IMG/VR virus record: IMGVR_UViG_3300036799_000025
Coordinates: 1-59,099 of that record
Origin: a virus
Reading direction: 5' to 3' (one strand)
DNA length: 59,099 nt
The notes below the pieces were generated by a model that ran no database searches, was not told the DNA's origin, and worked only from the letters and a program-made list of their open reading frames with translations. The position numbers and the translations under genes are program-made. Numbering within the stretch: position 1 is the first letter of the stretch; each line of letters begins with the position of its first letter. Shown here piece after piece: positions 1-49,483 of the stretch.

Positions 1-127
1 GCGCTGAATTGCTCAGCGACGTCGCGCAGCGTCTTCTGTGCGCCCTGTGGTGCGATTGCGATTGCGGTCATCGTCGATCTCCTGACTGAGTGAGCTGTCG
101 CTCGCGCTGCCGTCGTGCAGCGTCGAG
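1..127. repeat. Terminal overlap, copy 1 (circular closure)
   Basis: These 127 bases are identical to 58973-59099. The length equals a common maximum k-mer of short-read assemblers, so I read this as the artificial overlap of a circular contig, not a biological terminal repeat. Positions 1-71 are therefore a second copy of the first 71 bases of the minus-strand DUF932 gene whose full copy is 57712-59043. Removing one copy gives a circle of 58,972 bp. The physical virion ends cannot be deduced from this. Confidence 0.95.
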
Positions 128-146
128 CATCGAACAACGTCCTAGG

Positions 147-176
147 AACCTACAGTGCCTAGCTTGCGCTCGCAAG
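147..176 (-). promoter_or_regulatory. Promoter P1 with palindromic -35 element
   Basis: Reading the minus strand, -35 TTGCGA (170-175), a 17-bp spacer and -10 TAGGTT (147-152). The -35 lies inside the inverted repeat CTTGCGCTCGCAAG (163-176, 6-bp arms). It points through position 71 into the DUF932 gene (start 59043 in the other copy of the overlap), leaving a leader of about 70 nt. Four other promoters in the genome have the same architecture. Confidence 0.8.
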
Positions 177-191
177 TACTAGGCTAAGTGC

Positions 192-476
192 TTACGGCGC
201 ATCGACTAGGCAGTGCGCTTTCTGCCAGCTCGCAGGCTCGTCGCCGCAAGGGCAGAGGCGCTGTACAGGGCGCGGGTTCATGAGCGCGCCGGTCGACTCG
301 TCGACGTCGTACTCGATCGCGTCGCCGATCTTGAGCTTCGCCGGTGCCCACTGCTTCAGCGTCGCGGGGTGCATCTTCAGGACGAAACCTGAGTCGAGTA
401 AGAAGGCGAAGCGCGGCGGCTTGCCTGCCGCGACGCTGCTCATCGCTTTGATCTTTCCAGTCTTCGTGATGCTCAT
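192..476 (-). CDS. Hypothetical small cysteine-containing protein (94 aa)
   Basis: Last gene of the operon that starts at 4193. Its start ATG overlaps the stop of the upstream gene by 4 nt, typical of translational coupling. The C-terminus carries a cysteine cluster CPCGDEPASWQKAHC (about residues 75-89) that could bind a metal. The middle looks beta-rich (KLKIGDAIEYDVDE). A second start at residue 12 is possible. I do not recognise the family. Confidence 0.75.
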   Translation of the reverse strand: MSITKTGKIKAMSSVAAGKPPRFAFLLDSGFVLKMHPATLKQWAPAKLKIGDAIEYDVDESTGALMNPRPVQRLCPCGDEPASWQKAHCLVDAP

Positions 477-1060
477 CGGATTTCCTCATACGTGTCGATT
501 GTTGGCGTGACGCTGCCGTCAGGATTTCCCATCTCCGGTTTGATCTGATACTGCCACGGCTCGCCGATGAGAAAGCGCTCATGACCGCAGACGATGATCA
601 CAGCAAGCATTGTCCTGCGCACCTGCTTCAGATAGTCGCGCAGCGCGCCGTCTTGTCGCCACACGCCTTTGTGTTTCGGCTTCACGTGCACGACGATGCA
701 GCGATCGTCAGGCGCGGCCTGCACTTCGAGCACAGCCTTCACCTTGTCAGGTCGCAGCTCAGGCGGCAGGATGCCGAGCCGCCAGAGGCACGACCACGTC
801 TTGCACACGCCAGGACGCGTCTCGTAAATCGCGCAGCCGCGATGATTGCGTGAGTGCTCGCACGTCTCGCCGTACTTCGTGTCGACGCCGTCTTCGTGCA
901 CGGCGAGAATCGAGCAGCACATCGAGCACGCGCCGCATTCGCGACCAGGCCAGAGCACAGGCAGCACGTGGCCTGTCGGCAGCATGCGACCCTTTGTCTC
1001 TTCTGTGATGCGCGGCGTCTCATTGATATGCAGAATGATCGGCAACTCGCGCGTGTTCAT
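473..1060 (-). CDS. YkgJ-type cysteine-cluster protein
   Basis: The 195-residue product has the CxxCxxCC arrangement (C42, C45, C48, C49) followed by C67, C76, C86 and C91 in CAIYETRPGVCKTWSC. This is the pattern of the YkgJ-like zinc or iron-sulfur cluster family, whose biochemical function is unknown. The C-terminal half looks like an alpha/beta extension. It overlaps both neighbours by 4 nt inside the ten-gene operon led by the 4193 gene. The family call is fairly safe; any role in infection is not inferable. Confidence 0.8.
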   Translation of the reverse strand: MNTRELPIILHINETPRITEETKGRMLPTGHVLPVLWPGRECGACSMCCSILAVHEDGVDTKYGETCEHSRNHRGCAIYETRPGVCKTWSCLWRLGILPPELRPDKVKAVLEVQAAPDDRCIVVHVKPKHKGVWRQDGALRDYLKQVRRTMLAVIIVCGHERFLIGEPWQYQIKPEMGNPDGSVTPTIDTYEEIR

Positions 1061-1287
1061 GCTGCTGCCTCATTGATTGCTGTCACGACTTCGTCGAGCG
1101 AATCGACTGCACTTTCGAGCGCATCAGCGGCTGCCTCTGCCTGCTGTCCGCGCTCGCTATCACGCAGTCCGTCAGGCATCGCTTCGTATGCTTCCTGCTC
1201 TTCATCGCGCAGCGCTTCGAGCTGCGTCTTCAGGTTCTCTAGCTCGCCGCTGATCTTCGCGAGCGCAGCGCGTCGCTTGCTATTCAT
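1057..1287 (-). CDS. Coiled-coil hypothetical protein (76 aa)
   Basis: Start chosen at MNSKRR (1287) because this overlaps the upstream gene's end by 8 nt and gives a sensible coiled-coil protein; the longer open frame upstream is low-complexity Arg/Ser shadow. Residues about 5-70 are strongly helical with heptad-like Leu/Ala spacing (ISGELENLKTQLEALRDEE), then AAADALESAVDSLDEVV. No family recognised. Confidence 0.75.
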   Translation of the reverse strand: MNSKRRAALAKISGELENLKTQLEALRDEEQEAYEAMPDGLRDSERGQQAEAAADALESAVDSLDEVVTAINEAAA

Positions 1288-1762
1288 CGGCGCTCGCCTG
1301 CGCTTCGAGCTGCGCGACCGCGCGCTTCGCAGCCGCGCGACGCGGTTTGAGTATCTGCTCAATCTTCTCGCTCGTGACACCTGCCTGCTTGAACGCATCT
1401 TCCCACGAATCGCCGTGCCCACGCACGCCGATCGCGAGCGCGCCGATCGCACCGACAGCGTAGCGTCGCCGCCAGCAGATGCCTTGCAACTCCTGCTCGC
1501 GAGTGCGCCACGCAGTGACAGCAGCCGTACGCTCACGCCATGCGTTGCGAAACTCACCAAGCGTCATCTCATCGCTATATCCCTGATCGAAGATCGACAC
1601 CATGACGGGTTTCTTCTCGCGCATCTCGTGTAGCTCTTTGAGCGCTGCTTTGCGCTGCTCAGGCGTCGATGCGCTGCGAGCGCCGCGATCTTCGACCCAC
1701 GGCTTGCTTGTGCTGAATGCGACGCGTGCGATCTGCAGCGCCTGTGCTCTCGTGATTCTCAT
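1280..1762 (-). CDS. Hypothetical protein (160 aa)
   Basis: Soluble, mixed helical protein beginning MRITRAQALQIARVAF. It contains a glycine/alanine-rich segment (AVGAIGALAIGVRGHGDSW, about residues 100-118) and a basic helical C-terminus. It sits in the accessory operon, 3 nt after the stop of the upstream gene and overlapping the downstream gene by 8 nt. No recognised domain. Confidence 0.75.
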   Translation of the reverse strand: MRITRAQALQIARVAFSTSKPWVEDRGARSASTPEQRKAALKELHEMREKKPVMVSIFDQGYSDEMTLGEFRNAWRERTAAVTAWRTREQELQGICWRRRYAVGAIGALAIGVRGHGDSWEDAFKQAGVTSEKIEQILKPRRAAAKRAVAQLEAQASADE

Positions 1763-1765
1763 CGC

Positions 1766-1975
1766 TCATGCCTCGCTTAGGTGCGCGCTCACGCGCAGGT
1801 AAAAGTCGCTCAAGCCTTCGTGCTCAGAGCGACTGAAAAGTTGTACACAACTCTCAGCACGCCGCTGTGCGTACGCGCGATGTTCGCTCGGATCGATACT
1901 GCTCTCGCGCGCATCCTTCAGAAAGCGACGCGCGCACTCATCGACCGTCTCGCCCCACAGGTTCTGCTCTCTCAT
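1766..1975 (-). CDS. Hypothetical protein (69 aa)
   Basis: Small acidic-basic mixed protein that begins MREQNLWGETVDECARRF, likely all-helical. Its start overlaps the upstream stop by 4 nt, and spacing to the downstream gene is 3 nt, so it is very probably translated as part of the operon. Function unknown. Confidence 0.7.
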   Translation of the reverse strand: MREQNLWGETVDECARRFLKDARESSIDPSEHRAYAQRRAESCVQLFSRSEHEGLSDFYLRVSAHLSEA

Positions 1976-2256
1976 CGGCCTGCGCTCTTCGTGTCGAGCG
2001 GCTGCATTGCACGCTCGCTGCGCGCGAGTGCGCTCCTGATGCTAGCAAGTCGTCTCTGCAGCTCGTCGAGATATTGCGCGATCTCGTGCGGCTTGAGACG
2101 CTCGATCAAGCTGCTCAGCTCAACGAAGAGCTGCTCAGCGCGATCACGATGCCACGACGAAAGCGCGATGCCAATCTCTTCAGCATCTGAGTCAAAGAGA
2201 TCGCGTAGGATGCGCTCTTGGTCGTGCGCGTGCTGCTGCTGTTGTAGGTCGCTCAT
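1972..2256 (-). CDS. Helical hypothetical protein (94 aa)
   Basis: Start set at MSDLQQQQ (2256), 2 nt from the upstream stop; the longer frame to 2403 overlaps the neighbour deeply. The product is Gln-rich at the N-terminus and then helical with leucine repeats (LFVELSSLIERLKPHEIAQY), consistent with a coiled coil. No family recognised. Confidence 0.7.
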   Translation of the reverse strand: MSDLQQQQHAHDQERILRDLFDSDAEEIGIALSSWHRDRAEQLFVELSSLIERLKPHEIAQYLDELQRRLASIRSALARSERAMQPLDTKSAGR

Positions 2257-2258
2257 CG

Positions 2259-2699
2259 TTATCTCGCTCGCTTGATCGTGAGATGAAAGACTTCGCCACT
2301 CTTGAGCGTCACGACTAGGCCTTCGTCGCTCGTTAGCATGCCTGCGCTGCTGTATGACTCGATAAAGCGCGTAGTCAGCGCTGCTGTGCTGTGCCGCTCC
2401 CACGCAGTGCGCAGCAGGTGCGTGAGCTGATGCGAGAAGTCGTCTTCTGTGAGGCTCTCATCGTTCCAGATGACTGTCTCGCCTTCGAGCAGGCGCTGCA
2501 CACATGAGCGGCAGTGATTGCCCTTCAGGTGCTGCTCTGTCTCGTCATCGAGCCAGCTCGCGAGCGTGCCGCAGACCGTCTGCCCGCAGCCCTGACAGGT
2601 GACTACGTCGAGCGTGCACGAGCAGTACATCGCGCCCTGCTCGACGCGATGCTCGATGCCTTGCGCCTGCGTGATCGTGACTGCCTTCTCTGTGCTCAT
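2259..2699 (-). CDS. Zinc-finger hypothetical protein (146 aa)
   Basis: N-terminal half holds eight potential metal ligands: C26, C28, C35, C38, C43, H62, C63 and C66 (CSCTLDVVTCQGCGQTVC and HCRSC). This resembles a treble-clef or paired zinc-ribbon fold. The C-terminal half is helical then beta. A 25-nt gap separates it from the upstream gene; its leader contains CCTTTCAC about 16 nt before the ATG, a motif repeated before several genes. Confidence 0.75.
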   Translation of the reverse strand: MSTEKAVTITQAQGIEHRVEQGAMYCSCTLDVVTCQGCGQTVCGTLASWLDDETEQHLKGNHCRSCVQRLLEGETVIWNDESLTEDDFSHQLTHLLRTAWERHSTAALTTRFIESYSSAGMLTSDEGLVVTLKSGEVFHLTIKRAR

Positions 2700-2724
2700 T
2701 GCTCTGCTCTCTCGTGAAAGGTGA

Positions 2725-3024
2725 TTAGGTCGAGAAAAAGACGAAGATGCTCTTCTCGTCGTAACTGCGCTCGATCGTGTAGCGCAGACCGAGCACGCGC
2801 GCGAGTGCGTCGATCTTGTTCTCTCTGAAGTACTCTGCCGCCTGCCCGAGCGGGTCCGTCGTCTCGTCGAAGCCGTCAGGATAGCCGACGCGGATACGTC
2901 GCTCGCCGATCACTTCGACGTCTGACAGCATGCCTGAGCGCTGCAGCATGCCCTTCGCGCGCTCAGCGAGCGTCTGTCGTGCGATCTGCATATCGAAGCG
3001 CGACGTCCAGTGTGCCTTAGCCAT
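2725..3024 (-). CDS. Hypothetical protein (99 aa)
   Basis: Start at MAKAHW (3024), overlapping the upstream gene by 8 nt. The product looks alpha/beta: a helical first half (IARQTLAERAKGMLQRSG), a strand pair (VEVIGERRIRVGYPDG) and a C-terminal YDEKSIFVFFST strand. No cysteines and no recognised family. Confidence 0.75.
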   Translation of the reverse strand: MAKAHWTSRFDMQIARQTLAERAKGMLQRSGMLSDVEVIGERRIRVGYPDGFDETTDPLGQAAEYFRENKIDALARVLGLRYTIERSYDEKSIFVFFST

Positions 3025-3391
3025 GACGCGCACCTGCACGAGTCGTGAAGCGGTGCAGCTCCTGCCCGTTATGCTCTGCATACGGCTGCTCACAGATCGT
3101 GCACCGCTCGCGCTCGATCTCCTGCTCGATCTGTGCGCCTTCGACGCGCTCGATCTCGTCACGCGACAGCGCGCTGCCGTCCTGATAGACTGCCGACCAT
3201 CCGGTGTGCGGCTCAGTGCTCAGCGCGATTGCTGCATACGAGCGCACGCGCTTCGACTCGCGCTCAGCGAGAACACGCGCGCCCTGCGACGTCGCACGCG
3301 TGCCGACAAACTGCAGGCGCACGCCGTTAAAGAATCGATCGCTCGGTCGATCGCGAGCAATCAAGCTCGCGACAGTGTAGACGATGTACAT
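3017..3391 (-). CDS. Hypothetical protein with C-terminal zinc knuckle (124 aa)
   Basis: Start at MYIVYTVASLIARD (3391), chosen because it fits the 22-nt gap after the upstream gene; the frame extends further upstream only into that gene. Near the C-terminus RERCTICEQPYAEHNGQELHRF gives CxxC plus histidines, suggesting one zinc site. The middle is alpha/beta. Unknown role. Confidence 0.7.
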   Translation of the reverse strand: MYIVYTVASLIARDRPSDRFFNGVRLQFVGTRATSQGARVLAERESKRVRSYAAIALSTEPHTGWSAVYQDGSALSRDEIERVEGAQIEQEIERERCTICEQPYAEHNGQELHRFTTRAGARHG

Positions 3392-3413
3392 CTGCTGTGA
3401 TCTCCTGTCAGGG

Positions 3414-4193
3414 TTAGATGCGAACAAACTCGATGCGACCGTTGCCACCGCTGACGCGCTGCACCTTCATGCCGAGAGGCGTCAGCATCACGATCTGACC
3501 GCGAATCGAATTGAGCGCTGCGATCTCGCGCTGCAGCTCTGTCGAGAGCTTCGCGTGCCGATACGAGTGATCGACGGTCGTCGTCAGCGCGCGCTCGATC
3601 GCCCAAACGGCTGCGCGCTGCGCTGCTTCCTGATCGAGCAGCTCGCTGAGCTTCGACTCAGTCGCGAGCTTGTCGAGCTGCTCACCGAGCTGCTGCGCGT
3701 TGCGCTGCATCGAGTCAGCGACGCGATCGAGCGCCGCCTTCGCGTTCTGCATCATGCGCTCGCGCTTCGCTGATGCGGTCGACTGCAGCGTGTCGCGCTC
3801 TTGCGCGTCGAGCTGCGCATTACGAGCTGCGATCGAGCGACCGTTCTCGTCGACTTCGTCGCCGTCGTTCATGCCGTACGGCAGCGTCTCGACAAGGAAG
3901 AGATACTCGCCTGTGCTGAGATCGACGCCTTCGCACTCATCGTGAATGCGATTGACGATCTGCTCACCTTTCTCTGTCAGCAGGTCGATCACGATGCGAC
4001 CGCCCTTCGGGCCGCGCGTGACGATGAATTGCACGAGCCCTGCGCGCTGCAGCACGCGAAACGTGCGCGCATTGATCTTTGGCTGCTTGCGCGCTGCTGT
4101 CGTGTTGCCTGAGATCCTGCACAGCGCTTGCTGATGCAGGCGGCTGAGCGCAACGCGCTCGCGGATGATGTACTTGCGGGTCTCTGTCGTCAT
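3414..4193 (-). CDS. Winged-helix plus coiled-coil protein, possible regulator (259 aa)
   Basis: First gene of a ten-gene operon transcribed from promoter P2. Residues about 33-85 (PKINARTFRVLQRAGLVQF, followed by a GPKGGRIVIDLLTEKG wing and strand) look like a winged helix-turn-helix of the type that discriminates repeated or palindromic DNA. Residues about 125-195 form a long coiled coil suitable for dimerisation, and the C-terminus is beta-rich. Being the leader gene behind a palindromic promoter, it is a reasonable candidate for a phage regulator, possibly autoregulatory. That role is inference only. Confidence 0.75.
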   Translation of the reverse strand: MTTETRKYIIRERVALSRLHQQALCRISGNTTAARKQPKINARTFRVLQRAGLVQFIVTRGPKGGRIVIDLLTEKGEQIVNRIHDECEGVDLSTGEYLFLVETLPYGMNDGDEVDENGRSIAARNAQLDAQERDTLQSTASAKRERMMQNAKAALDRVADSMQRNAQQLGEQLDKLATESKLSELLDQEAAQRAAVWAIERALTTTVDHSYRHAKLSTELQREIAALNSIRGQIVMLTPLGMKVQRVSGGNGRIEFVRI

Positions 4194-4248
4194 TGTCTCT
4201 TCTCGCGTGAAGGATCAGTCAGTGCAGGTCGTCGTACCTGCACTGAGA

Positions 4249-4278
4249 AGTCTACGCTAGGCAGCTTGCGCGCGCAAG
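4249..4278 (-). promoter_or_regulatory. Promoter P2 with perfect 14-bp palindrome
   Basis: Minus strand: -35 TTGCGC (4272-4277), 17-bp spacer, -10 TAGACT (4249-4254). The -35 is within the perfect palindrome CTTGCGCGCGCAAG (4265-4278), so a bound dimer would block RNA polymerase or an activator could contact it. The expected transcript starts near 4242, about 50 nt before the winged-helix gene. Confidence 0.85.
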
Positions 4279-4293
4279 TAGCCTCATAAGCGC

Positions 4294-4322
4294 AAGAAAG
4301 GCAGGCGATTAGCCTGCCCTTC
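4294..4322 (-). terminator. Intrinsic terminator between two operons
   Basis: On the minus strand a 7-bp stem GGCAGGC/GCCTGCC (arms 4312-4318 and 4300-4306) with a 5-nt loop is followed by TTTCTTG. It closes the operon of the DUF6011-like gene and lies just upstream of promoter P2. Confidence 0.75.
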
Positions 4323-4346
4323 CTGTGTCAGTTTGAGACTGTCGAG

Positions 4347-5123
4347 CTACTTCGTCGCGCAGATTGGGCCGATGCCGCTCTCGATCGACTCAGGGACGGT
4401 CAGCGTGCGACCACAGCGACCGCACCGGCCTTCGTGCCAGACTTCGACGCGCGCGTCTTCGAGATGCTTCATCAGCCACGAGAACGCGATCGCGCTCGGA
4501 GCGCTCGCAGCGACGCGCGACTTACGCGTGACGCGAAAGCCGTCGGCGAAGATCGTTCCGATATAGGCAAAGTCGCCTGTGTTGTCAGCGCCGTTGAGCA
4601 GCGAGACGAAGTAGACAGGCATCATGCCGGGGCGACACTTCGCAGGATCACTCTGCTGCACTTTGTACGTGAAGCGCGTCTGCGTCGCCTTCGAGCGCAC
4701 CGTAAAGATCGCGTTGCCTGCGAGGATGAAGCCTTTGCGCTTGCCTGCGGCGAGCTGACCGCGCATCGTGCGCGCGATCGCGTCGCTGTCTTCGATCGCG
4801 ACGAAGGCGCTCTCGACCTGCGCAGGCGCTGCTGCGACAGGCGCTGCAGCCTTTGCGATCGCGTGTGCTGACGTGTAGTGCGCGAGTACTGCCGCTTCGA
4901 TCTGCTTGCGCGCCTTAACCTCGAAGGCGAGATCGTCGAGCGAGTCGAAGAATTGACGCACTGTCTCGCTGGCAACGGCACCCATGTTTTTTTCGAGCAG
5001 CTCGATGATCTCGACGATCAGCGCGTCGAGCTGCTGCTGCTGCTGCTGCGTGCGCGTGTCGGCCTTCGTGTCGACTGCGATCTCGCCGTCGAGCATTGAG
5101 TGAAACTCTGCGAGCGTCATCAT
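4347..5123 (-). CDS. DUF6011-type zinc-ribbon protein (258 aa)
   Basis: The last 30 residues (GRCGRCGRTLTVPESIESG, then GPICATK) match the CxxCGRxLxxPxSxxxGxGPxC signature of DUF6011, a short zinc-binding domain common in phage and actinobacterial proteins. Upstream are a Gln run (about residues 25-30), a helical region, an Ala/Pro linker, and a beta-rich central domain (FTYKVQQSD, VYFVSLLNG). Start at 5123 leaves 1 nt after the upstream stop; an adjacent ATG at 5120 is equally possible. Terminated by the hairpin at 4300-4318. Confidence 0.8.
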   Translation of the reverse strand: MMTLAEFHSMLDGEIAVDTKADTRTQQQQQQLDALIVEIIELLEKNMGAVASETVRQFFDSLDDLAFEVKARKQIEAAVLAHYTSAHAIAKAAAPVAAAPAQVESAFVAIEDSDAIARTMRGQLAAGKRKGFILAGNAIFTVRSKATQTRFTYKVQQSDPAKCRPGMMPVYFVSLLNGADNTGDFAYIGTIFADGFRVTRKSRVAASAPSAIAFSWLMKHLEDARVEVWHEGRCGRCGRTLTVPESIESGIGPICATK

Positions 5124-5124
5124 G

Positions 5125-5331
5125 TTAGCGGCCCTCTGTGCTATGCACTGTTGCGACGTGTTCGCGCCACGCCTTGTACGCCTCTGCGCGAGGATTCGGG
5201 AAGCAACTCGCGTCAAAATCCATCGACGCCCACCCGCACTCACAAGACACGTGATACGAGATGCGAGCGCCAAGACACTTGTGCCCCTTTGTCGTCTTCG
5301 CCGGTCGTGCTGTCGTTGCTGCCATCGTCAT
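5125..5331 (-). CDS. Small zinc-finger protein (68 aa)
   Basis: First gene after promoter P3, with a leader of about 47 nt. Cysteines and histidines are spaced as CECGW ... HVATVH, reminiscent of a C2H2-like finger near the C-terminus, with extra cysteines at the N-terminal side (HKCLGARI). Start may be residue 1 or 3 (both ATG). Co-transcribed with the DUF6011-type gene. Function unknown. Confidence 0.75.
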   Translation of the reverse strand: MTMAATTARPAKTTKGHKCLGARISYHVSCECGWASMDFDASCFPNPRAEAYKAWREHVATVHSTEGR

Positions 5332-5384
5332 CCTCTTCGCGTAGGGTGTCTCTCTCGTCGGTCGCCGTCGTGCGACCTGACTAC

Positions 5385-5414
5385 ATTCTATAGCACGCAG
5401 CTTGCGCGCGCAAG
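5385..5414 (-). promoter_or_regulatory. Promoter P3 with perfect 14-bp palindrome
   Basis: Minus strand: -35 TTGCGC (5408-5413), 17-bp spacer, -10 TAGAAT (5385-5390), the best -10 match in the family. The palindrome CTTGCGCGCGCAAG spans 5401-5414 and is identical to that of P2. It drives the two-gene unit 5331-4347. Confidence 0.9.
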
Positions 5415-5529
5415 TAGCGTAGCTAAGTCGTTGAGCAGCAAGCGACTGCCCGCTCGTTTCTGAGAGCAGCTCTCGCGAGAAGATGTCTTTTCAGGACAGG
5501 CGCAGGCGTTCGATCGTTCTTAACTAGGC

Positions 5530-5709
5530 ATGAGACTGCGATGCACCTGCTGCCGCGTGCCGATGATCGTGCCGACGCGACGCCCGTATCCTATCCTGAG
5601 CTTCTGTGATCGCTGTCGCGCACTCCTGCGCGGCGAGCTGCGCGCAGACGAGCCTAGAATCGACGCTGCGCCGTCTAGCGTCGCGCCTGAGCGCCTATCG
5701 CTGATCTGA
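5530..5709 (+). CDS. Zinc-ribbon protein, only plus-strand gene (59 aa)
   Basis: A plus-strand frame in the 392-bp gap between minus-strand genes. It encodes two CxxC pairs 17 residues apart (C5-T-C-C8 and C26-D-R-C29), a standard zinc-ribbon geometry, followed by RALLRGELR. Codon choice resembles that of neighbours. The start is weakly supported: only TAGGC lies before the ATG, and no clear plus-strand promoter is seen. The rest of the gap (5415-5529) has nothing I can assign beyond a short GAGAGCAGCTCTC inverted repeat. Confidence 0.5.
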   Translation: MRLRCTCCRVPMIVPTRRPYPILSFCDRCRALLRGELRADEPRIDAAPSSVAPERLSLI

Positions 5710-5723
5710 CGAACGAGTAAGCG

Positions 5724-6530
5724 TCAGCAGCCTGGCAGGCGTTTACGCAGCAGCGCAGGGCAGGGCAGCGGCTTCGAGATCGCGATGCCGACGAAGGCGC
5801 GCGTCGCAGGGCTCGGGTACGTGAAGCCGTAGCCGAAGACGAGCGCGAGGCGCGAGCGATCGTCAGCGCTGAGATCCTTCTGCAGCACAGGCGACGGGCA
5901 CACGCTCGGATCCTGCTCGACGTGATCGATCGAGATCTTCGCCCAGCTCACGAGTGAGTCTGTGCCTGGCCGCACCGGCTTCACAGTCAGCAGCGCGTCG
6001 CGCATGCCGAGCGTGTTGACCTTCGACGTACAGCCGAGACGTGCGCTGAGCCCGAGCGGGTCAAGCGCGAAGCTCGCGTCGATCGCGCCCTTCGCAGGCG
6101 GCGCAGGCAGCGTCACGACGGCGTGCATCGTGTACGGCTCCTGTCTGACGTCGAAGACGCCGAGCCGTGCACCTGATGCGGTCTCAGTCGTCGCACTCGA
6201 TGCTTCACGATTCGTCACGCTCTTCGTTGCGATCAGCACGCCGAGCTGCAAGAGCGCGCGGCGCATCTCGCCTAGCTCCTGATCGTACGCATCGCTCTTC
6301 TGTACCTGCTGAATCACGAGCCGCTGAAAGCCGAGCGAGTCGCGCAGCATGCGCGTCGTGTCAGCCTTCGCGCGCGCCTGCGATTCTGCGAGCGCTGCAC
6401 GTGCATCAGCGCCGCGTGCGGTGTTCAGCTCCCACATCAGGCCAATGATCACGACGAGCATGATCACAAACGCGATCGCGATCGTCTTTGCCGTCGTGCT
6501 CGACGTCGCCCACGCTGTGCGCACCGACAT
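5724..6530 (-). CDS. Membrane-anchored coiled-coil protein (268 aa)
   Basis: One N-terminal transmembrane segment (about residues 16-33, IAIAFVIMLVVIIGLMW) is followed by a helical region (residues about 40-100) and a beta-rich C-terminal domain with four cysteines. N-in topology with a coiled-coil stalk recalls spanins, but the C-terminal globular part is larger than usual. Its start overlaps the stop of the beta-helix gene by 1 nt and it ends the late region, so a lysis or envelope role is plausible but unproven. Confidence 0.7.
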   Translation of the reverse strand: MSVRTAWATSSTTAKTIAIAFVIMLVVIIGLMWELNTARGADARAALAESQARAKADTTRMLRDSLGFQRLVIQQVQKSDAYDQELGEMRRALLQLGVLIATKSVTNREASSATTETASGARLGVFDVRQEPYTMHAVVTLPAPPAKGAIDASFALDPLGLSARLGCTSKVNTLGMRDALLTVKPVRPGTDSLVSWAKISIDHVEQDPSVCPSPVLQKDLSADDRSRLALVFGYGFTYPSPATRAFVGIAISKPLPCPALLRKRLPGC

Positions 6531-25579: not shown

Positions 25580-26680
25580 TTACGCAGTCGACGCGACTGC
25601 GATCTTGTCCGGTGCTTCGATGACTGGCATGCCGTTCATCGCGCCACGACCGCGTAGCTCCCACGGCGCGGCTTCCGGCGTGTAGAGCTGCGCCCAACGT
25701 CCTGGCCTGCCGCCGCCTTCGACCGTCGGCCCGAGATGCGTGTAGCCGATCGGGTTGTCGCGGTTCGGGTCGTCCGTCGAGCCTTCGCCGACGCGGTAGC
25801 CAGTGCGATTATTGTTGCCAATCGCGACGAGCTTGTTGCGCTGACAGAACGGCACAATGATCGTCGACGTCGGGTCGGCAGGGTTCAGGATCTCGCCCTC
25901 GCGATCGTACTTCACGATCTGCACGATATCAGCGACGTCATTCGTGAAGGCACCTGTCGCAGGCACGATCTTTCTGAACGTCAAGCCGCCTGCGTCTTCC
26001 TGCACCGCGACCGCGTTATTCGCCGGGTTGTAGCGAATGCGATCGACCGTGTCAGGATGCGCGACGATCGCGCGCAGGTTGCCGCGCAGACGCTGTCTGA
26101 GCAGTACGATATCGGCCCAAAACTTCGACGTCGTGCCGTCATAGACGTCTGTGCCGGTGCGCTGCGCAAGGATGTTCGCAGCAGGCACGCCGTACGAGAC
26201 GACGAGACTCTTGCCGTTGTACGTCCAATTGATCGCGCCGGTCGTGAGTGCTTGACCGCGCAGCCATTCCATCGAGTCGATCAGCGGCTGCACGACGAGC
26301 TTCTGCAGGAAGTTCAGCGCTTCGTTCATGATGATCTCGTTTGTCGGCGTGCCGCTCACCTGAAGCTGCATGAGCATTTGCTGAAGCTGCCTGACAACCT
26401 CTTCCTTCAGCGGCACTTCGATCGCGATCTTCGCGAGCTGCTCTAGGAACGTCGAGACGCTGACGTAACCTCCGGGCGGGTACGGCGAGTCCATGCCGAC
26501 GAGTCCTGCCATCGTCGCGTGCACGGTCATGTTACCGCTATTCGCGATGTACGACCACACTGGCGTCTCTGGGAGAATTGCTTCCCACAGATAGTCTCCG
26601 GGCGGTCGTGTCGCGTTTGCGATGCGGAACGCAGCATTCGGCGTGAGCTGCGCAAGCACCGCCGCAAAATTGAGGAACAT
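25580..26680 (-). CDS. Major capsid protein, lambda gpE family
   Basis: 366 residues. The N-terminus has a hydrophobic start, then RPPGDYLWEAILPETPVWSY and helical P-loop-like spine segments. Features such as DPTSTIIVPFCQRNKLVAIG and the C-terminal strand are typical of gpE-type capsid proteins (HK97 fold). It comes after the scaffold-like and decoration-like genes, the canonical order. The downstream 157-bp gap (25423-25579) has no gene; it holds a TTGATCAA palindrome and the next gene's Shine-Dalgarno. Confidence 0.85.
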   Translation of the reverse strand: MFLNFAAVLAQLTPNAAFRIANATRPPGDYLWEAILPETPVWSYIANSGNMTVHATMAGLVGMDSPYPPGGYVSVSTFLEQLAKIAIEVPLKEEVVRQLQQMLMQLQVSGTPTNEIIMNEALNFLQKLVVQPLIDSMEWLRGQALTTGAINWTYNGKSLVVSYGVPAANILAQRTGTDVYDGTTSKFWADIVLLRQRLRGNLRAIVAHPDTVDRIRYNPANNAVAVQEDAGGLTFRKIVPATGAFTNDVADIVQIVKYDREGEILNPADPTSTIIVPFCQRNKLVAIGNNNRTGYRVGEGSTDDPNRDNPIGYTHLGPTVEGGGRPGRWAQLYTPEAAPWELRGRGAMNGMPVIEAPDKIAVASTA

Positions 26681-26736: not shown

Positions 26737-27159
26737 TCACGTGCGGTTGTCTGCGTACTGCTGGAATTTGAACGTGCAGCCTGCGCTCGCCATCTCCGTC
26801 TTGAACGCAGCAGGCAACACCTTCGGTGCGCCTGTCGAATCAGGCAGCAGGTTCTCGTACACGACGCCACCGAGATAGACCTGATACGCGCCGTAGCCTG
26901 CAGCGCGATCGCCTTCGATCGCGGTCGTCGCGAGAATGCCGATCGCCGGATTCGTTGTCAGGACGCGAGGCGACACCTTGCCTGCGCCGAGCAGCGAGCC
27001 GACGACGGTGCCAGCAGGCAGCACGTGCTTGCCTGTCGATGCGTCGAGATAGCCTGCGCCGACGTTCGTCCAATCGATCTGATATCCGTATGATCGATCG
27101 ACGGAATTCTGATCGGCGACGAAGTCAGCGCGGCTGATCGTGTAAGTGGTGCGCCCCAT
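26737..27159 (-). CDS. Putative head decoration/stabilisation protein (140 aa)
   Basis: Beta-rich with VLPAGTVVGSLLGAGKVSPR, ILATTAIEGDRAAGYGAYQV and YLGGVVYENLLPD. The 'hhPAGthhG...' turn and a K...Ggxh pattern are frequent in phage head-decoration proteins placed before the major capsid gene. A 131-bp gap upstream (27160-27290) carries a palindrome and possible -10 element. Inference from context and fold impression. Confidence 0.7.
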   Translation of the reverse strand: MGRTTYTISRADFVADQNSVDRSYGYQIDWTNVGAGYLDASTGKHVLPAGTVVGSLLGAGKVSPRVLTTNPAIGILATTAIEGDRAAGYGAYQVYLGGVVYENLLPDSTGAPKVLPAAFKTEMASAGCTFKFQQYADNRT

Positions 27160-27238
27160 GTGAGAGACTCCGCTCGTAATAGTGTGGCAAGGCTCGTCGC
27201 TGCGATGTCACTGCAGCGAGATCGACCTGCACGCGTGC

Positions 27239-27267
27239 GTTATAACCCCGGTGTTACAAACTCGCGA
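27239..27267 (-). promoter_or_regulatory. Possible promoter/operator before the capsid genes
   Basis: Minus strand TATAAC (27239-27244) is a fair -10; 17 bp upstream is TCGCGA (27262-27267), a weak -35. The palindromic TAACACCGGGGTTA (27243-27256, one mismatch pair) overlaps the -10. The gap separates the scaffold-like gene from the decoration and capsid genes, where extra expression would make sense. Low confidence. Confidence 0.3.
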
Positions 27268-27290
27268 ATCTCAATCGCGCAGCGTGTCGC

Positions 27291-28292
27291 CTAGCGAGTC
27301 GCACCGGACGCGTTCCCACTACCACTGTTAGCAGTCCCTGACTGCGGACGTCGGAAGGGGTTCGGCCGCTCTGCAGCAGCCTTATTTGAGCGCTCGATGA
27401 ATTTGTCGACTAGGCCAACACCAGCAGACGACGAGTCGCCACTGCTGCTGCCTTGCTCAACAGGAAACGGAATCGACGAGAAGACGTTGCCATTGGCAGG
27501 CGCTGTCGTCGACGAAGAGCTGCTCGCACTGCTGCCTGGAGCAGTGCTTCCTGCTGCGCCGTTCCCGTTGGTGCTCTGCGCCCCTGTCGCAGGCACGACT
27601 TTCAACGCGGGCAGGAAGTTTTTTAAGCTCGCATCACGCGCGACGAGCTCGTCGAGCTTCTCCCAGGCAGCGCTCGCATCGCCCGCCTTGCGAACGTACG
27701 GTCGCTTCTGAGAGATCTCTTTGCCGTTCTCGACGAGTACAACGTCACGCAGCTCGATGTCGAGCTTGTTCGTGTCGAGCAGCGGGGCGAGGACATCAGC
27801 ATTCCACTTCAGCGAAGCCGCCGCGCTGTCTTGTGCCTTGCGCCGATCGGCCTGCTGCTGACGCTCTTTCAGCTCGCCCGCCTCTTTCACGCGCGGTGCC
27901 ACTTCGGTCACCGGCACGTTGAGAGCTTTGATCGCTTGCCATGCCTTCAGATCGTCGCCAGTCAGTACGAGCGCGCCGTCAGGAACCTGCTTCGCACGCA
28001 GGCCCTCGATCTCTTGCGAGCGTGCGCGTTCACGATCGCGGAAATCGTAATTCTCGCCGCTGAGTACGCGCAGCGCTTCACGCTCGCTGCCGTATCGATG
28101 CACGAGACGGTCGACAATGTCGAGCGCGCCTTGCGTCCGACTCTCGTACTGCCCACTCGCTGAGCTACTGCCTGACGAGCCAGTGCCTGACGAGCTGCTG
28201 CTGCCCCCTGAGCTGCTGCCTGACGATGATCCACCACCTGAAGCGCCGCCCGTGCTGTCCTTAGGATCGAAGAGCATGCAGCGAAACTTCAT
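27291..28292 (-). CDS. Scaffold-like head protein (333 aa)
   Basis: N-terminal Ser/Gly low-complexity region (residues about 14-48) and a similar C-terminal one flank a central helical region (SEREALRVLSGENYDFRDRE, VKEAGELKERQQQADRRK). This disordered-helical-disordered design and the location immediately before the decoration and capsid genes suit a scaffolding protein. It is the first gene after promoter P5 with an approximately 110-nt leader. Confidence 0.75.
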   Translation of the reverse strand: MKFRCMLFDPKDSTGGASGGGSSSGSSSGGSSSSSGTGSSGSSSASGQYESRTQGALDIVDRLVHRYGSEREALRVLSGENYDFRDRERARSQEIEGLRAKQVPDGALVLTGDDLKAWQAIKALNVPVTEVAPRVKEAGELKERQQQADRRKAQDSAAASLKWNADVLAPLLDTNKLDIELRDVVLVENGKEISQKRPYVRKAGDASAAWEKLDELVARDASLKNFLPALKVVPATGAQSTNGNGAAGSTAPGSSASSSSSTTAPANGNVFSSIPFPVEQGSSSGDSSSAGVGLVDKFIERSNKAAAERPNPFRRPQSGTANSGSGNASGATR

Positions 28293-28410
28293 GAGTGGCC
28301 TCTGACGTCCCTGACGTCACGAGTAAAGGTCTGTCGAGCGATCACGAGCGGCAGCGCACCTTGCGTCTGCAACCCGTCGGCGCATGCGCGCCCTTAGAGC
28401 TACCCTGCCG

Positions 28411-28440
28411 AGTGTATCGTATGCGCTTGCGCCGCGCAAG
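28411..28440 (-). promoter_or_regulatory. Promoter P5 (structural operon) with palindrome
   Basis: Minus strand: -35 TTGCGC (28434-28439), 17-bp spacer, -10 TACACT (28411-28416). The palindrome CTTGCGCCGCGCAAG (28426-28440) has 7-bp arms around one base. It drives the scaffold-like gene and probably the head and tail genes behind it, connecting structural genes to the same control element as the accessory operons. The remaining gap (28293-28410 and 28441-28585) shows no gene. Confidence 0.8.
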
Positions 28441-28585
28441 GTTCACGCCTATTCATCAAGCGCACCACTGAAACTCGATTCATCTGCGGCGATGACTAGC
28501 TACGCTGAGCACAGGCGTAAGTAGCGGGCTCTCACGAGCTGCCAGCTTGCCAGACGGCTTCACGAGTGTAGCACTATGCCGCTTC

Positions 28586-28622
28586 GGGGCCGCGCTCGAC
28601 TTCACAAGAGTCGACCGGCCCC
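28586..28622 (-). terminator. Long hairpin after the MuF-like gene
   Basis: GGGGCC (28586-28591) pairs with GGCCCC (28617-28622), and within it TCGACT pairs with AGTCGA. It lies just after the stop of the head-morphogenesis gene and upstream of P5, so it probably terminates the terminase/portal operon. The usual U-run is absent, so it could instead be a processing or mRNA-stability structure. Confidence 0.45.
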
Positions 28623-28645
28623 TTCGTCTTGTCCTAACGATGAGC

Positions 28646-29278
28646 CTAGCGATACGCCTTCGTGCAGCGACAGCGACGACCGCAGAGACGCTCGCCGATC
28701 GGCGTGATCGTGCCGAGCTTCACCCACCCGAGCGCAGTCATCTCTAGGCACTCGTCGCAGTGATCAGCAGGATGCAGCACGTTGCGCTCTTGCGTCATGC
28801 CTGCTTCGCGCATCATGCGCGTTCTGACCAGCTCATACGCGTGACGCCCTGCTTCGCTGTACAGGCCTGCGCGATTCGAGAGCGAGCCGCCTAAGGTCTG
28901 CGTGCCATCAGCGATCGAGCGCGCGAAGCCTTCGAGATACTCGTACTCAGTCTGCACGAGCTTCCCGATCTGCGAGAGATCGCCTTGCGTGAGCTGCGCC
29001 CAACCGCCACGCGCAAGCGCGCCAGAATAGAGCTGCGTGTCTTTGATCGCGATCTTCATCTCTGCGCGCCACGCTTCGAGCGAGATCGTACCTGCACGCA
29101 GCTCGCTCGCTAGCTCATTCATGCGCAGCTCAGAGTTACGCAGCGACAGATCGAGCTGCCGTCTGATCTCGTCGTTACTGACGAAGCGCCCGTTCGGCGC
29201 GATGTACCTGCCTGCGCTTTCGTTCCAGCGATAGCTGCTGCCGCGAGGCGCAGAGCGCATCTGCGCGCGCGACGGCAT
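28646..29278 (-). CDS. MuF-like head morphogenesis protein
   Basis: 210 residues. The C-terminal region has the MuF hallmark HPADHCDECLEMTALGW ... GERLCGRRCRC (paired cysteines after a helical domain). The N-terminus carries RWNESAGRYIAPNGRFVS, a short 'domain of phage-head proteins' motif. MuF-type proteins sit between portal and scaffold, participate in head assembly and may be injected. Start overlaps the previous stop (TGATG). Confidence 0.8.
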   Translation of the reverse strand: MPSRAQMRSAPRGSSYRWNESAGRYIAPNGRFVSNDEIRRQLDLSLRNSELRMNELASELRAGTISLEAWRAEMKIAIKDTQLYSGALARGGWAQLTQGDLSQIGKLVQTEYEYLEGFARSIADGTQTLGGSLSNRAGLYSEAGRHAYELVRTRMMREAGMTQERNVLHPADHCDECLEMTALGWVKLGTITPIGERLCGRRCRCTKAYR

Positions 29279-29619
29279 CAGTCGTCGTCGCTATCAGGCG
29301 TCCACTGCTTCGGCTTGTACTTGCCGCGCTCGTGCAGGCGCTCATGCTCGTCGGCTTCGTCGTCTGTCGCGTCAGCCAGCGAGCGATTCTTCTCTCGCGT
29401 CTCAGGCGTCGACAGCCCCCACGCGTCGATAGTCCTGACGTCGATGCCAAGCGGGTTGTCGATGATTGAGACTGTCTCGACGTACGGATCGACGTGCTCG
29501 CCGCGTGCGACAGCACGTGCGCGCTCGATCAGCAGACACTTCGTCGCTTCGCTGACGCGCACTGTCGTATTCTGATCTGTCGAGACGTCCCACCACTCTT
29601 GCGGCAGCTCTGCGCTCAT
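29278..29619 (-). CDS. Hypothetical protein between portal and MuF genes (113 aa)
   Basis: Soluble, acidic protein starting MSAELPQEWWDVS, with a helix TKCLLIERARAVARGEH and a disordered acidic C-terminus (DATDDEADEHERLHERG). Coupled by overlap to its downstream neighbour. No family recognised. Confidence 0.7.
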   Translation of the reverse strand: MSAELPQEWWDVSTDQNTTVRVSEATKCLLIERARAVARGEHVDPYVETVSIIDNPLGIDVRTIDAWGLSTPETREKNRSLADATDDEADEHERLHERGKYKPKQWTPDSDDD

Positions 29620-32452: not shown

Positions 32453-34102
32453 CTACGCTACGCGACGCTGCGTGCGCGTGCCTGGGTTCGTCGACGTCGG
32501 CACTCTGAGCACGACCTTATTGACTGCGCCTGAGCACGAGTCGACGACGTCGTCGTGCGCACCGTTCGGGAAGTCAGCCAGCTCGCGCCTGACTGCGCCG
32601 TTCCACGTTGCTTTGAGCATGCGCACCATGCTGCTCTCGACCATCGACGCGAAGGGGATAGCGCGCGCGAGCTTATTGCCTGACGACGCGCCGACGCGAT
32701 CGATGTAGACGCGCTGCGCGCCCTGCGCGAGCAGGATCTTCCTGAACATGATGCCTGCATCGACGCCGCCGTCGCCGCCGCCTGATTCGCCCCACGTCGT
32801 CAGGCGTGCGCCGAATCGAGCACGATCGCGCATCTCGCAGCGCTTGATCTTCTCATCGCGCTCGCCCGGGCCCCACTGCCCGCGCTCGACGTCGAGCAGA
32901 TAGATCATCTCGCTCGCGACGTCAAAGCCGACGAGCGCGCCGACTGAGTAGTCGCCGTCGTTCTCTGTCGCGGCCTTGTCCCAATACCTGACGACGCGGA
33001 GCACGCTCCACGGCACGTCGACGTCAGCGACGAGCGTGAGATGCTCGATCTTAAAGAGCAGGCCTGACTTCGGGCGCGGTCGCTGCTGATAGAGCGCAGC
33101 CCAATAGTACGGCCCGACGCGGCGCATGATCTTCAGCAAGCGCTCACGCGGGTAGCGCTCCGGCGCGAGCGCTTCGCCAGGCTGACGCCAGTCAGGTTCG
33201 ACGGTGCACGTCGGCGGCCAGAGCGGCCTGCCGTCTGTCTCTTCGACCTTCGCGATCTCTTCAGGCGACGACTTCAGCGCCTCGAAGTTCACGATATGCC
33301 AGCGCTCAGGCTCTGCGTCTTCAGCGCCTTCGTGCTCTGCTTCCTGCCACTCTTCGCTCAGCAGCCAGCCTGCTAAGTCGTCTTCGTTCCAGCGCTGCTG
33401 AATGATGACGATCGCGGCGTCAGGCTCAGCGCGCGTGAAGAATGTCGAGCGATACCACTCCTTGTGACCGGCGCGTACACGATCTGACGCTGCCTCTTCC
33501 GCATTCTTGACCGGATCATCGATCAGGCCGAGATGAAAGCCTTTGCCTAAGATCGCGCCGCCGACGCCTGCAGCCCACAGACCGCCGCCGCGTCCTGTCT
33601 CCCACTGCTTGACCGCGCCGACTGACTGACGCTCGTGCGCTGTGTAGTAGTAGGTGCGCGCTGCGCGTGAGAGCGTGTGCGCTAGCTCGGCCGTGTGCGC
33701 GCAGAGCCCGACCCAGCGCTCAGGATGACGATAGAGATAGTACGCAGGAAAGAGACGCGAGACGGCTTCTGACTTGCCGTGCCGAGGCGGCGCGAAGATG
33801 AGCACACGCTTCTTGAGCCCATCAGCGACCTGCTGCAGTACGCCTGCGAGCACGAGCGCGTAGCGATACCAGCGATAGCGCATGCCGCTGACGCGATCGA
33901 CGAAGTCTTTGTACGCGATCGGTGCAGCGCCGTTCGCGGTGTCGTCGATGAGCTGATACCAACGCGCCTGCTCAGCAGGCGTCATGAAGCTCAGCGCGAG
34001 CTGCTGCTCAGGCGTCAGCGGTCGTATCGAGCCGACGACCTGCGCTGCGTCTTCGATCTGCTCGCCGTCCCTGACGTCGCGAGCTGCTGCTGCGTCGCTC
34101 AT
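32453..34102 (-). CDS. Terminase large subunit
   Basis: 549 residues with the expected motor and nuclease parts. Walker A APPRHGKS (PPRHGKS at 105-111) and Walker B HLGLIDDPVKN (Asp-Asp at 195-196) define the ATPase; RYWDKAATE near residue 372 starts the RNase H-like nuclease domain, and a further acidic motif lies later (GGGDGGVDAGIMF). It packages DNA into the prohead. It follows a 98-aa gene by 10 nt and is 27 nt before the small 55-aa gene. Confidence 0.9.
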   Translation of the reverse strand: MSDAAAARDVRDGEQIEDAAQVVGSIRPLTPEQQLALSFMTPAEQARWYQLIDDTANGAAPIAYKDFVDRVSGMRYRWYRYALVLAGVLQQVADGLKKRVLIFAPPRHGKSEAVSRLFPAYYLYRHPERWVGLCAHTAELAHTLSRAARTYYYTAHERQSVGAVKQWETGRGGGLWAAGVGGAILGKGFHLGLIDDPVKNAEEAASDRVRAGHKEWYRSTFFTRAEPDAAIVIIQQRWNEDDLAGWLLSEEWQEAEHEGAEDAEPERWHIVNFEALKSSPEEIAKVEETDGRPLWPPTCTVEPDWRQPGEALAPERYPRERLLKIMRRVGPYYWAALYQQRPRPKSGLLFKIEHLTLVADVDVPWSVLRVVRYWDKAATENDGDYSVGALVGFDVASEMIYLLDVERGQWGPGERDEKIKRCEMRDRARFGARLTTWGESGGGDGGVDAGIMFRKILLAQGAQRVYIDRVGASSGNKLARAIPFASMVESSMVRMLKATWNGAVRRELADFPNGAHDDVVDSCSGAVNKVVLRVPTSTNPGTRTQRRVA

Positions 34103-43276: not shown

Positions 43277-44140
43277 TCAGTCCGTTGCCCGTGTGACGAG
43301 CGTCATGCCGTACTCGTCGATCGGCTGCTCGAAGATGGCTGGATCAATGTCTGTGCGTCGACGCAAACGATTGCGTTTGAACGGTCGATAATCGACGTGA
43401 TGCTGCCAGCGACCAAACTTGCGCGAGACACGCACGACGTCAGGATGCTTTGCTGCTAGCTCCTGCGCCATTGCCAGCCGACCGTCAAACTCAGTGCCGT
43501 CCGGGTTGAGCTTCTTTACATAGTGCGGCGTATTGCCGCCGTTCAGCGTCATCGTCACAGCCTTGCCGATGAGGAAGGTATTAAAGAGCACAGTGCAGTA
43601 GCCGTCTTTCAGGAAGCGCAGCGCGAGATCTGTGTCGTCATTGTAGAAACCCTCGAAGCGATGCGGCACGCGGTTGTCGAGCAAATAGCACGAGTACACG
43701 CGCGTGTTGAGAATGAATGGCGGGATCACGTCACGATGCTTCGCAAAATATTTGTAATTCGGTCCTGCCATTGGCACGTTCTCATAACGATCGACGAAGT
43801 CTTCCATCGCGCGCAGCGTGCCGCTGCTGTGCACGCGCAAGATCAGATTGCGATTGAATCGCAAGAGCCCTCTGATGTTGTCGTCCATCTGCCAGTGACG
43901 CGCAGCGCCGCGCTCGATCGCGTGCTCCCAAATGAAATTGCGCGCAGCGACGAGCCCGCGATCACGCCACGGCAGCGTGACAATCTTGCGCGCATCGATG
44001 ACGGCTGCATATGCGTCATACTCTTGCGGCTCGACGACGATCGTGTACGGCAGCTCAAGCGCTTCGAGCGTCTTGCTCGTGAAGCGCGTGTCAGCGCGAC
44101 CTTTCGACGGGATATAGATCGGGTATCGCGGCGCGAGCAT
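43277..44140 (-). CDS. TET-associated-type glycosyltransferase (TAGT-like)
   Basis: 287 residues starting RYPIYIPSKGRADTRFTSKT ... YTIVVEPQEYDAYA, then WQMDDNI (MDDN at 85-88, the metal and nucleotide-sugar site) and FEGFYNDDTDLALR. This sequence pattern is the GT-A-like family named TET-Associated GlycosylTransferase, found in phages near base-modification enzymes. It could glycosylate a modified base. No TET/JBP oxygenase or cytosine methylase is recognisable in the genome, so the acceptor is unclear. It is 2 nt after the ParB-fold gene. Confidence 0.8.
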   Translation of the reverse strand: MLAPRYPIYIPSKGRADTRFTSKTLEALELPYTIVVEPQEYDAYAAVIDARKIVTLPWRDRGLVAARNFIWEHAIERGAARHWQMDDNIRGLLRFNRNLILRVHSSGTLRAMEDFVDRYENVPMAGPNYKYFAKHRDVIPPFILNTRVYSCYLLDNRVPHRFEGFYNDDTDLALRFLKDGYCTVLFNTFLIGKAVTMTLNGGNTPHYVKKLNPDGTEFDGRLAMAQELAAKHPDVVRVSRKFGRWQHHVDYRPFKRNRLRRRTDIDPAIFEQPIDEYGMTLVTRATD

Positions 44141-44142
44141 CG

Positions 44143-44862
44143 TTATGCATCCTCATCGTCGTCGTTCTCATCGTCGTCCTGCGCCGCCGCGTCATCGCTC
44201 TCGACATAGGTCTTGTCAGCGTGCACCTTGCGCACCTGCTCAGGATACCAAAAATAATGCGTCTTCAGCGTGATCTCGCGCCCGAGCAGCTTCGCGAAGG
44301 CTGCAATCGCCTCGTCATTCTCGAAGTGCACAGTCAAGTGATGATACGACCGCTCATCGCTGACCTGATACTCAGGCATTCCAGTCCACGTCTGCGAGTA
44401 GTCGCCTGTCAGATGCTGATAGAGCGTCGTGACGTCGTCGTCGTCATAGCCAGTGCCCTTCAGGTTGCCTTGCTCCTGCTGCGCGCGCAGATAGTCGAGC
44501 AAGAGCGCGTCGTTATAGCCGCCTAGCTCTGTGATGCGATTATCTGCCGCGACGATACGTGCGCCGGTCGCGTCATCGCAGTCAATCCACAGCACATTGA
44601 CGCGCTTCACCTTCAGACGACGCAGCGCTTCGCGCGTGCCATGCCCGCCGAGGATGCGACGCGATGACGTCTGCACGCGCACTGCGCCGTAGACGCCGTT
44701 CTCACGCATCGACTCAACGATCGCGCCGATATCGTGATCCTTCGGGTTCCCTGGCCAGTCCTGCAGCGTCTTGAGATCGACGTCTGCTTCGTACGACTGC
44801 GGCAAGAATTTGATGATCTCGCCGAGCTGCGCTGCTGCCTTCTTTGCGTCGGTCGCAGTCAT
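44143..44862 (-). CDS. ParB-N-fold protein of the DNA-modification type
   Basis: 239 residues with the ParB/Srx-like N-terminal fold: DWPGNPKDHDIGAIVESM, ILGGHGTREALRRL and ADNRITELGGYNDALLL. The C-terminal domain HHLTVHFENDEAIAAFAKLL ... HYFWYP accompanies this fold in many phage proteins near DNA modification genes. No helix-turn-helix for parS binding is visible and the C-terminus is an acidic tail. It sits between a TAGT-like glycosyltransferase and a RuvC-like nuclease. Confidence 0.8.
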   Translation of the reverse strand: MTATDAKKAAAQLGEIIKFLPQSYEADVDLKTLQDWPGNPKDHDIGAIVESMRENGVYGAVRVQTSSRRILGGHGTREALRRLKVKRVNVLWIDCDDATGARIVAADNRITELGGYNDALLLDYLRAQQEQGNLKGTGYDDDDVTTLYQHLTGDYSQTWTGMPEYQVSDERSYHHLTVHFENDEAIAAFAKLLGREITLKTHYFWYPEQVRKVHADKTYVESDDAAAQDDDENDDDEDA

Positions 44863-49452: not shown

Positions 49453-49483
49453 AGCATAGCGCTCTAGCTACAGCTTGCGCAAG
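49453..49483 (-). promoter_or_regulatory. Promoter P4 with short palindrome
   Basis: Minus strand -35 TTGCGC (49477-49482), 18-bp spacer, -10 TATGCT (49453-49458). The inverted repeat is the shorter CTTGCGCAAG (49474-49483), lacking the central GCGC of the other sites. It overlaps the end of the upstream gene and gives a leader of about 25 nt before the J-domain-like gene. Confidence 0.75.

Follow-up and report, generated by a model that had tools for sequence, protein, structure and literature searches.

In phages of the lambda type, operators overlap the early promoters, and the early leaders carry nut boxB, a small hairpin with a recognised loop that works together with boxA and the N protein. 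Here we describe a set of five promoter-like sites in the IMG/VR virus record IMGVR_UViG_3300036799_000025, which was analysed over its full 59,099 bases and is called the window below. Phage promoters with operators are ordinary; what makes this set of interest is a palindrome that takes in the -35 box and is coupled, in three of the five promoters, to an RNA element in the leader.

Three further systems offer points of comparison. The ESAS of Cluster K mycobacteriophages are inverted repeats that stand before a subset of non-structural genes and are kept in related phages (PMC3203893). Their arms of about 17 bp are conserved in sequence and separated by a variable spacer, and they adjoin the 13-bp SAS, GGGATAGGAGCCC, at the start codon (PMC3203893). 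The put RNA of phage HK022 is about 70 nt long, comprises two stem-loops and acts on RNA polymerase (PMC9378689). The stoperators of Cluster A mycobacteriophages are reported to be asymmetric sites that terminate elongation (PMC9283540).

Results

An earlier note on this DNA had listed five minus-strand TTGCG(C/A)-N17/18-TANNNT boxes, and all five were found in their places. In the whole window they are the sole minus-strand matches to TTGCGN-N16..18-TANNNT, and the one plus-strand match lies inside the last of them, site E. Sites A to D hold a 14-15 bp palindrome, CTTGCG-N2/3-CGCAAG, the left arm of which is the -35 box, and TANNNT follows after exactly 17 bp in all four (4/4). Promoter A (147-176, minus strand) has CTTGCGAGCGCAAG at 163-176, a spacer of 17 and TAGGTT at 147-152. 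It is located upstream of the open reading frame (ORF) 57712-59043, which starts at position 71 when read through the terminal repeat; an exact direct repeat of 127 bases is present at both ends of the window (62% G+C), and we therefore take the window to be circular as assembled. Promoter B (4249-4278, minus strand) carries CTTGCGCGCGCAAG at 4265-4278 and, after a spacer of 17, TAGACT at 4249-4254, upstream of ORF 3414-4193. The same CTTGCGCGCGCAAG is found at 5401-5414 in promoter C (5385-5414, minus strand), where TAGAAT (5385-5390) again follows after 17 bp, and the genes downstream are ORF 5125-5331 and the DUF6011 gene (4347-5273). A, B and C also have in common the flanks TA...CT and the leader hairpin described below.

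Site D (28411-28440, minus strand) has 7-bp arms around a 1-base centre (palindrome 28426-28440, reading CTTGCGC-C-GCGCAAG on the plus strand), a spacer of 17 and TACACT, and precedes ORF 27291-28292 and the head protein gene 25580-26680. Site E (49453-49483, minus strand; CTTGCGCAAG, with TATGCT as the -10) is a weak promoter-like site upstream of ORF 48760-49422 and overlaps the 3' end of ORF 49468-49983; it has TACTTGCGC...AAGCTG in common with the family, yet its palindrome is just 10 bp. The proposal that several promoters share one palindrome within the -35 region was borne out by the full repeat in A to D, which a relative keeps at B and C; it is weaker for E, with its short repeat, its spacer of 18 and its place at a gene end. 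A to C form a tight class, D shares only the palindrome and the spacing, and E is marginal. A mechanical promoter scan with the TTGACA/TATAAT consensus detected none of the sites in 1-6000 or 27000-29500.

Two observations were made beside these sites. The five promoters that were aligned (A, B, C and their two counterparts in the relative) all carry an unvarying TTA, mostly within CTTAG, at a distance of 8-9 bases on the upstream side of the palindrome. Upstream of site D, at about 28577-28613 on the minus strand, there is a strong G+C-rich hairpin that has no T run and is absent from the list of the mechanical terminator scan; it is possibly a terminator closing the unit before D. Extended outer dyads around A to C that had been seen by eye (for example GCCTAG...CTAGGC at A) were discarded, being absent from the counterparts of B and C.

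The pair of promoter hexamers by itself is at chance frequency: TTGCGN-N16..18-TANNNT was observed 6 times on both strands, and 200 fourth-order Markov genomes gave a mean of 2.1 and a maximum of 10. The form found at A to C (CTTGCG-N2-CGCAAG, with TANNNT after exactly 17) was observed 3 times in the window and in 0/1000 fourth-order Markov genomes, the D form (N3 centre, TANNNT at 17) once and in 1/1000 simulated genomes, and the short form of E was reached in 6/1000, values that are post hoc because the sites had been picked by eye. An inexact search of the window for the 14-mer with up to 3 mismatches showed no excess (16 found, 29.9 expected), which argues that the palindrome family is small and sharp.

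Hairpins with the hexaloop ACGACG and at least 4 Watson-Crick pairs occur three times on the minus strand of the whole window, once in each of the three leaders A, B and C; the plus strand has one, with 4 pairs, at 14110. Hairpin A (105-122, minus strand) reads CGCTGC-ACGACG-GCAGCG and folds with a longer, bulged stem, hairpin B (4219-4246, minus strand) has an 11-bp stem with its loop at 4230-4235, and hairpin C (5360-5377, minus strand) reads GGTCGC-ACGACG-GCGACC. The three stems are unlike each other in sequence, yet fully paired. In 1000 simulated genomes, ACGACG hairpins with at least 6 pairs on the minus strand numbered 0.106 on average and 2 at most. No ACGACG hairpin was found in the leaders of D and E that were examined.

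A scan of IMG/VR for CTTGCGNGCGCAAG-N10..12-TANNNT returned 14 stretches with 15 places (8 at spacer 17, 6 at 18 and 1 at 19). One stretch is a true relative, IMGVR_UViG_3300003321_000072 (22,747 bases), which has the same gene order over about 2.3-23.8 kb of the window and about 75% nucleotide identity, and which keeps B and C with the palindrome, the spacer of 17 and TANNNT. Its promoter C' reads CTTGCGCGCGCAAG-N10-TAGAAT and is followed by the same hairpin as C; its promoter B' reads CTTGCGCGAGCAAG-N10-TACCCT and is followed by GCAGGC-ACGACG-GCCTGC. From B to B', a T-A pair of the stem becomes C-G by a double change, and the loop is unchanged. The only ACGACG hairpins with at least 5 pairs in the relative's record are those of B' and C'; another has 4 pairs. 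The loop starts 13 nt past the -10 in B and C, as calculated from the coordinates, and at the same distance in B' and C'. The gene after the promoter is not kept: at C the window has an extra 68-aa frame ahead of the DUF6011 gene, and after B only about 100 of the 259 residues of the 3414 product match the relative by tblastn, the N-terminal part being without a match. The element therefore travels with the promoter and not with one protein.

When the stems of A, B, C, B' and C' were aligned, 30/30 cells were paired (hairpins A to C having been found by complementarity) and both sides had changed in 5/6 pairs; the covariation score was 1.000, compared with at most 0.167 for slid versions, on five sequences only. 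The ACGACG hairpin has a covarying stem with a conserved loop, as in a structured RNA element. A covariance model built from the five hairpins found all of them again, along with the copy of A in the terminal repeat, with E values below 1e-4, and its next match (E 0.003) was on the other strand, at 37957. Rfam gave 0 matches at the gathering score in the whole window, and none of the sub-threshold Rfam matches in bases 1-6000 overlaps the leader hairpins. A text search of the literature for ACGACG as the loop of a phage leader hairpin, a narrow test, returned no paper. Two other identities were considered for the hairpin and rejected: it is not like the tetraloop of the guanidine-II motif, since the loop has six bases and the closing pairs vary, nor like a DNA hairpin promoter of the N4 type, since it lies downstream of a sigma-70-type -10.

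Other hairpins occur close by. A small hairpin with the loop ACGCGA and 3-4 pairs is located over the ribosome-binding region of B (4195-4210), B' and C' (near 1731 and 3163 of the relative, L019; all on the minus strand). Just upstream of promoter B there is a terminator-like hairpin (4294-4324, minus strand), which is strong and is present at the same place in both phages with a different sequence; the mechanical terminator scan did not list it.

The palindrome was also found in G002 (IMGVR_UViG_3300020152_000005, 56,521 bases), a distant phage that likewise has a 127-base end repeat. Three exact palindromes are positioned at promoters there, each upstream of the leader word CTCGAGAGCAGCAC. 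Two of these promoters read TTGCGG-N17-TACCTT; the third has better boxes, TTGACT-N17-TATACT, and its palindrome begins four bases inside, beside the -35. At this third promoter the palindrome is kept although the -35 is a separate box, a pattern that speaks for an operator to which a protein binds. Five places on one strand (minus), near 2828, 4180, 49053, 49689 and 55151, carry the leader word or its core CGAGAGCAGCAC; three of these have the exact palindrome, one has it with one mismatch and no clean 17-bp spacing, and one is without it. To judge from its sequence the leader word represents an independent promoter-leader family, and folding it in its three leaders did not reveal a consistent structure. 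Hairpins of the window type were not found in the scanned pieces of G002 to G006. A further arrangement was noticed in L012 / L025 (G004), where divergent promoter-like sites, each with TANNNT at spacer 17, share one palindrome CTTGCGCGCGCAAG near 5427-5438 of L025.

Neither the 57712 product nor the terminase led to additional relatives in close-protein searches of IMG/VR, and none came from the phage collection when bases 1-25000 were compared with it as DNA or when tail and head proteins were used in tblastn. By tblastn of the phage collection the 57712 product matched 4 distant records and the terminase 1139, with identities below 60% throughout. Searches with the two-sequence alignments A1 and A2 returned only the relative already found. 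The full module (palindrome, 17, TANNNT, ACGACG) was found in 17 stretches of IMG/VR, with the stem only in the relative's 2, and in 16 stretches of the genome collection, 0 of them with the stem; these patterns fix the spacing, and looser versions could escape them.

The earlier note had named three helix-turn-helix products, at 55848, 56552 and 3414, as possible regulators. That of ORF 3414-4193 turned out to be a poor candidate, given its partial match to the relative even though B' is kept there. The 56552-57118 product has a winged-helix match: it scores above the cut-off for RepL and below that for MarR_2, and it also matches a regulator family of PHROG. Of the three it is the likeliest candidate for a regulator that would act at the palindrome. 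Structure predictions made without alignments (mean predicted local distance difference test scores of 59.1 for the 56552 product and 47.5 for the 3414 product) were too poor to search with. A reading of the palindrome as parS was dropped, since the parS consensus does not fit, though a ParB-like gene exists at 44143-44862. The wider proposal of the earlier note, that a single regulator could switch most of the genome, found no support here, and graded affinity arising from the variation in arms and centre, also put forward there, is speculation.

The genes discussed around the promoter sites are all on the minus strand. The recognised genes are those of the terminase large subunit (32453-34102), RecT (52084-53418) and the major head protein (25580-26680), together with one that resembles a replication initiator (50409-51524). 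The label DUF932 given earlier to one gene was not upheld: its product has no Pfam family at E 0.001 and matches PHROG 1362, of unknown function. The gene labelled J-domain matches PHROG 9210, also of unknown function, in a comparison with PHROG only. Within the initiator-like gene, repeats of the GCTAGCA type are clustered at 50974-51250 on the minus strand, several inverted pairs among them, and the cluster looks like origin iterons placed inside an initiator gene; in lambda, the origin iterons are within the initiator gene O. At 43277-44862 (minus strand), a gene matching PHROG 842 (beta-glucosyl-HMC-alpha-glucosyltransferase, E 2.4e-40) adjoins a ParB-like/methyltransferase-associated gene, and the two together suggest possible DNA base modification.

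Discussion

The results described above support the view that the palindrome acts as more than a -35, and we consider it probable that the promoters of the window are a set under operator control, three of whose leaders also carry an element recognised as RNA. Sites A to E would be minus-strand phage promoters used by a sigma-70-type host polymerase, and a dimeric DNA-binding protein would recognise the palindrome CTTGCGNGCGCAAG. Because the palindrome covers the -35, the bound dimer would most likely block the polymerase and so repress. A, B and C would constitute one regulon, to which D and E probably belong as weaker sites or as sites that have diverged. The transcripts of A to C would begin with the hairpin. 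Its ACGACG loop is fixed while its stem can vary, and it is therefore most likely that a protein or a paired RNA reads the loop in the transcript, so that the hairpin would provide a second control after initiation. A more elaborate proposal, which we put forward tentatively and regard as rather doubtful, is a two-layer module in which the -35 operator palindrome is joined to a nascent-RNA hairpin of invariant loop, read by a factor of the phage or of its host that alters elongation or the fate of the transcript, and in which this unit has been copied before separate transcription units.

Several results weigh against the operator and RNA-element interpretation. The relative is the sole one found and spans only B and C. 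The loop of A starts 30 nt past the -10 and not 13, and not every leader has an unusual fold energy (z from -0.65 to -3.53). Because hairpins A to C were found by complementarity, their full pairing is partly due to selection, and the pairing of 100% counts for less than the slid control and the change between B and B'. The motif scan in related phages that had been suggested earlier succeeded in so far as B and C are kept in one relative, but it did not show a wider pattern: a control at spacers 20-22 gave 18 stretches against 14 for spacers 17-19, and there is therefore no enrichment of the palindrome at spacer 17 across IMG/VR. Finally, no candidate regulator beyond the ParB-like protein was found in common between G002 and the window at E 1e-3; with so few proteins shared, a common phage regulator is not evident.

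One could envisage that the hairpin serves only as a stabiliser of the mRNA 5' end or as a translation aid, the palindrome being an operator and the sole regulatory element. In B and C it lies where the 5' end is expected, or not far from there, and near the ribosome-binding region, which is in agreement with such a role, as is a stem free to vary in sequence, which a structural stabiliser would allow; neither the invariant six-base loop nor the nearly fixed distance to the -10 would be required, however, and we regard this explanation as unlikely, if by no means negligible. The loop kept in sequence and the position of the hairpin just past several promoters could also be explained if it were a nascent-RNA antitermination element that works in the manner of lambda nut boxB or HK022 put and carries early transcripts through terminators, for instance that between units C and B. 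A terminator-like hairpin does lie between these units in both phages, and putL of HK022 is just downstream of PL (PMC9378689). The same source gives putRNAs as about 70 nt with two stem-loops (PMC9378689), whereas neither a boxA-like sequence nor a second put-type stem was identified here, where no dedicated test was made; moreover, the terminator between C and B is not listed by the scan, and units B and C each have their own promoter. Antitermination is in our judgement improbable.

The palindrome, for its part, may be the target not of a phage protein but of a regulator of the host, put to use by phages that are unrelated to each other. The occurrence of the same palindrome in G002, which has only the terminase and the ParB-like protein in common with the window at E 1e-3, argues for this; against it, many products of the window have no assigned family, and tblastn could miss diverged regulators. 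We give this explanation a minor but real share of the likelihood. That the palindromes arose by chance, or as a by-product of a favoured -35 sequence in G+C-rich DNA, is very improbable. The frequency of the hexamer pair alone would allow it, and an exact 18-mer is present in a contig (L004) whose DNA does not match the window at E 1e-3 and which shows no evident promoter at that place, but the simulations, the conservation together with the leader in the relative, and the shifted palindrome of G002 all argue against it.

If the promoters are indeed under the control of an operator and their leaders carry an RNA element, the palindrome serving as the -35 and the hairpin of fixed loop and covarying stem would amount to a specific control in two steps, in a group of phages for which hardly any relatives are known. 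Such a control would open a way to study gene timing in unidirectional environmental phages and would possibly yield a new RNA-protein pair.

A literature search did not find the three palindrome strings in any paper. Like lambda-type operators, the sites of the window are inverted-repeat DNA sites over the promoter boxes of several phage units; unlike them, the left arm is itself the -35 and a leader RNA hairpin is attached to three sites, and a repressor gene or lysogeny module was not identified in the window. With nut boxB the window shares a small leader hairpin, but the loop here has six bases, ACGACG, and neither boxA nor an N-like protein was identified, no search for boxA or for arginine-rich proteins having been made. 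The likeness to stoperators is that of one recognised DNA site at several places in a genome; the window sites differ in being symmetric and in lying within promoter boxes (PMC9283540). The HK022 put element resembles the leader hairpin as an RNA element just past an early promoter (putL), whereas the leaders of the window show one clear hairpin each, of 18-28 nt (PMC9378689). ESAS and SAS are alike in that inverted repeats stand ahead of some phage genes and are kept among relatives, but the window hairpins vary in the stem and fix the loop, and the -35 palindrome is separate from them (PMC3203893). The window elements do not fit the definition of the Cluster K family: their arms differ in sequence, and none of the five leaders examined contains the SAS word. 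Among the systems compared, ESAS are the nearest described repeat family and HK022 putL is the nearest in placement.

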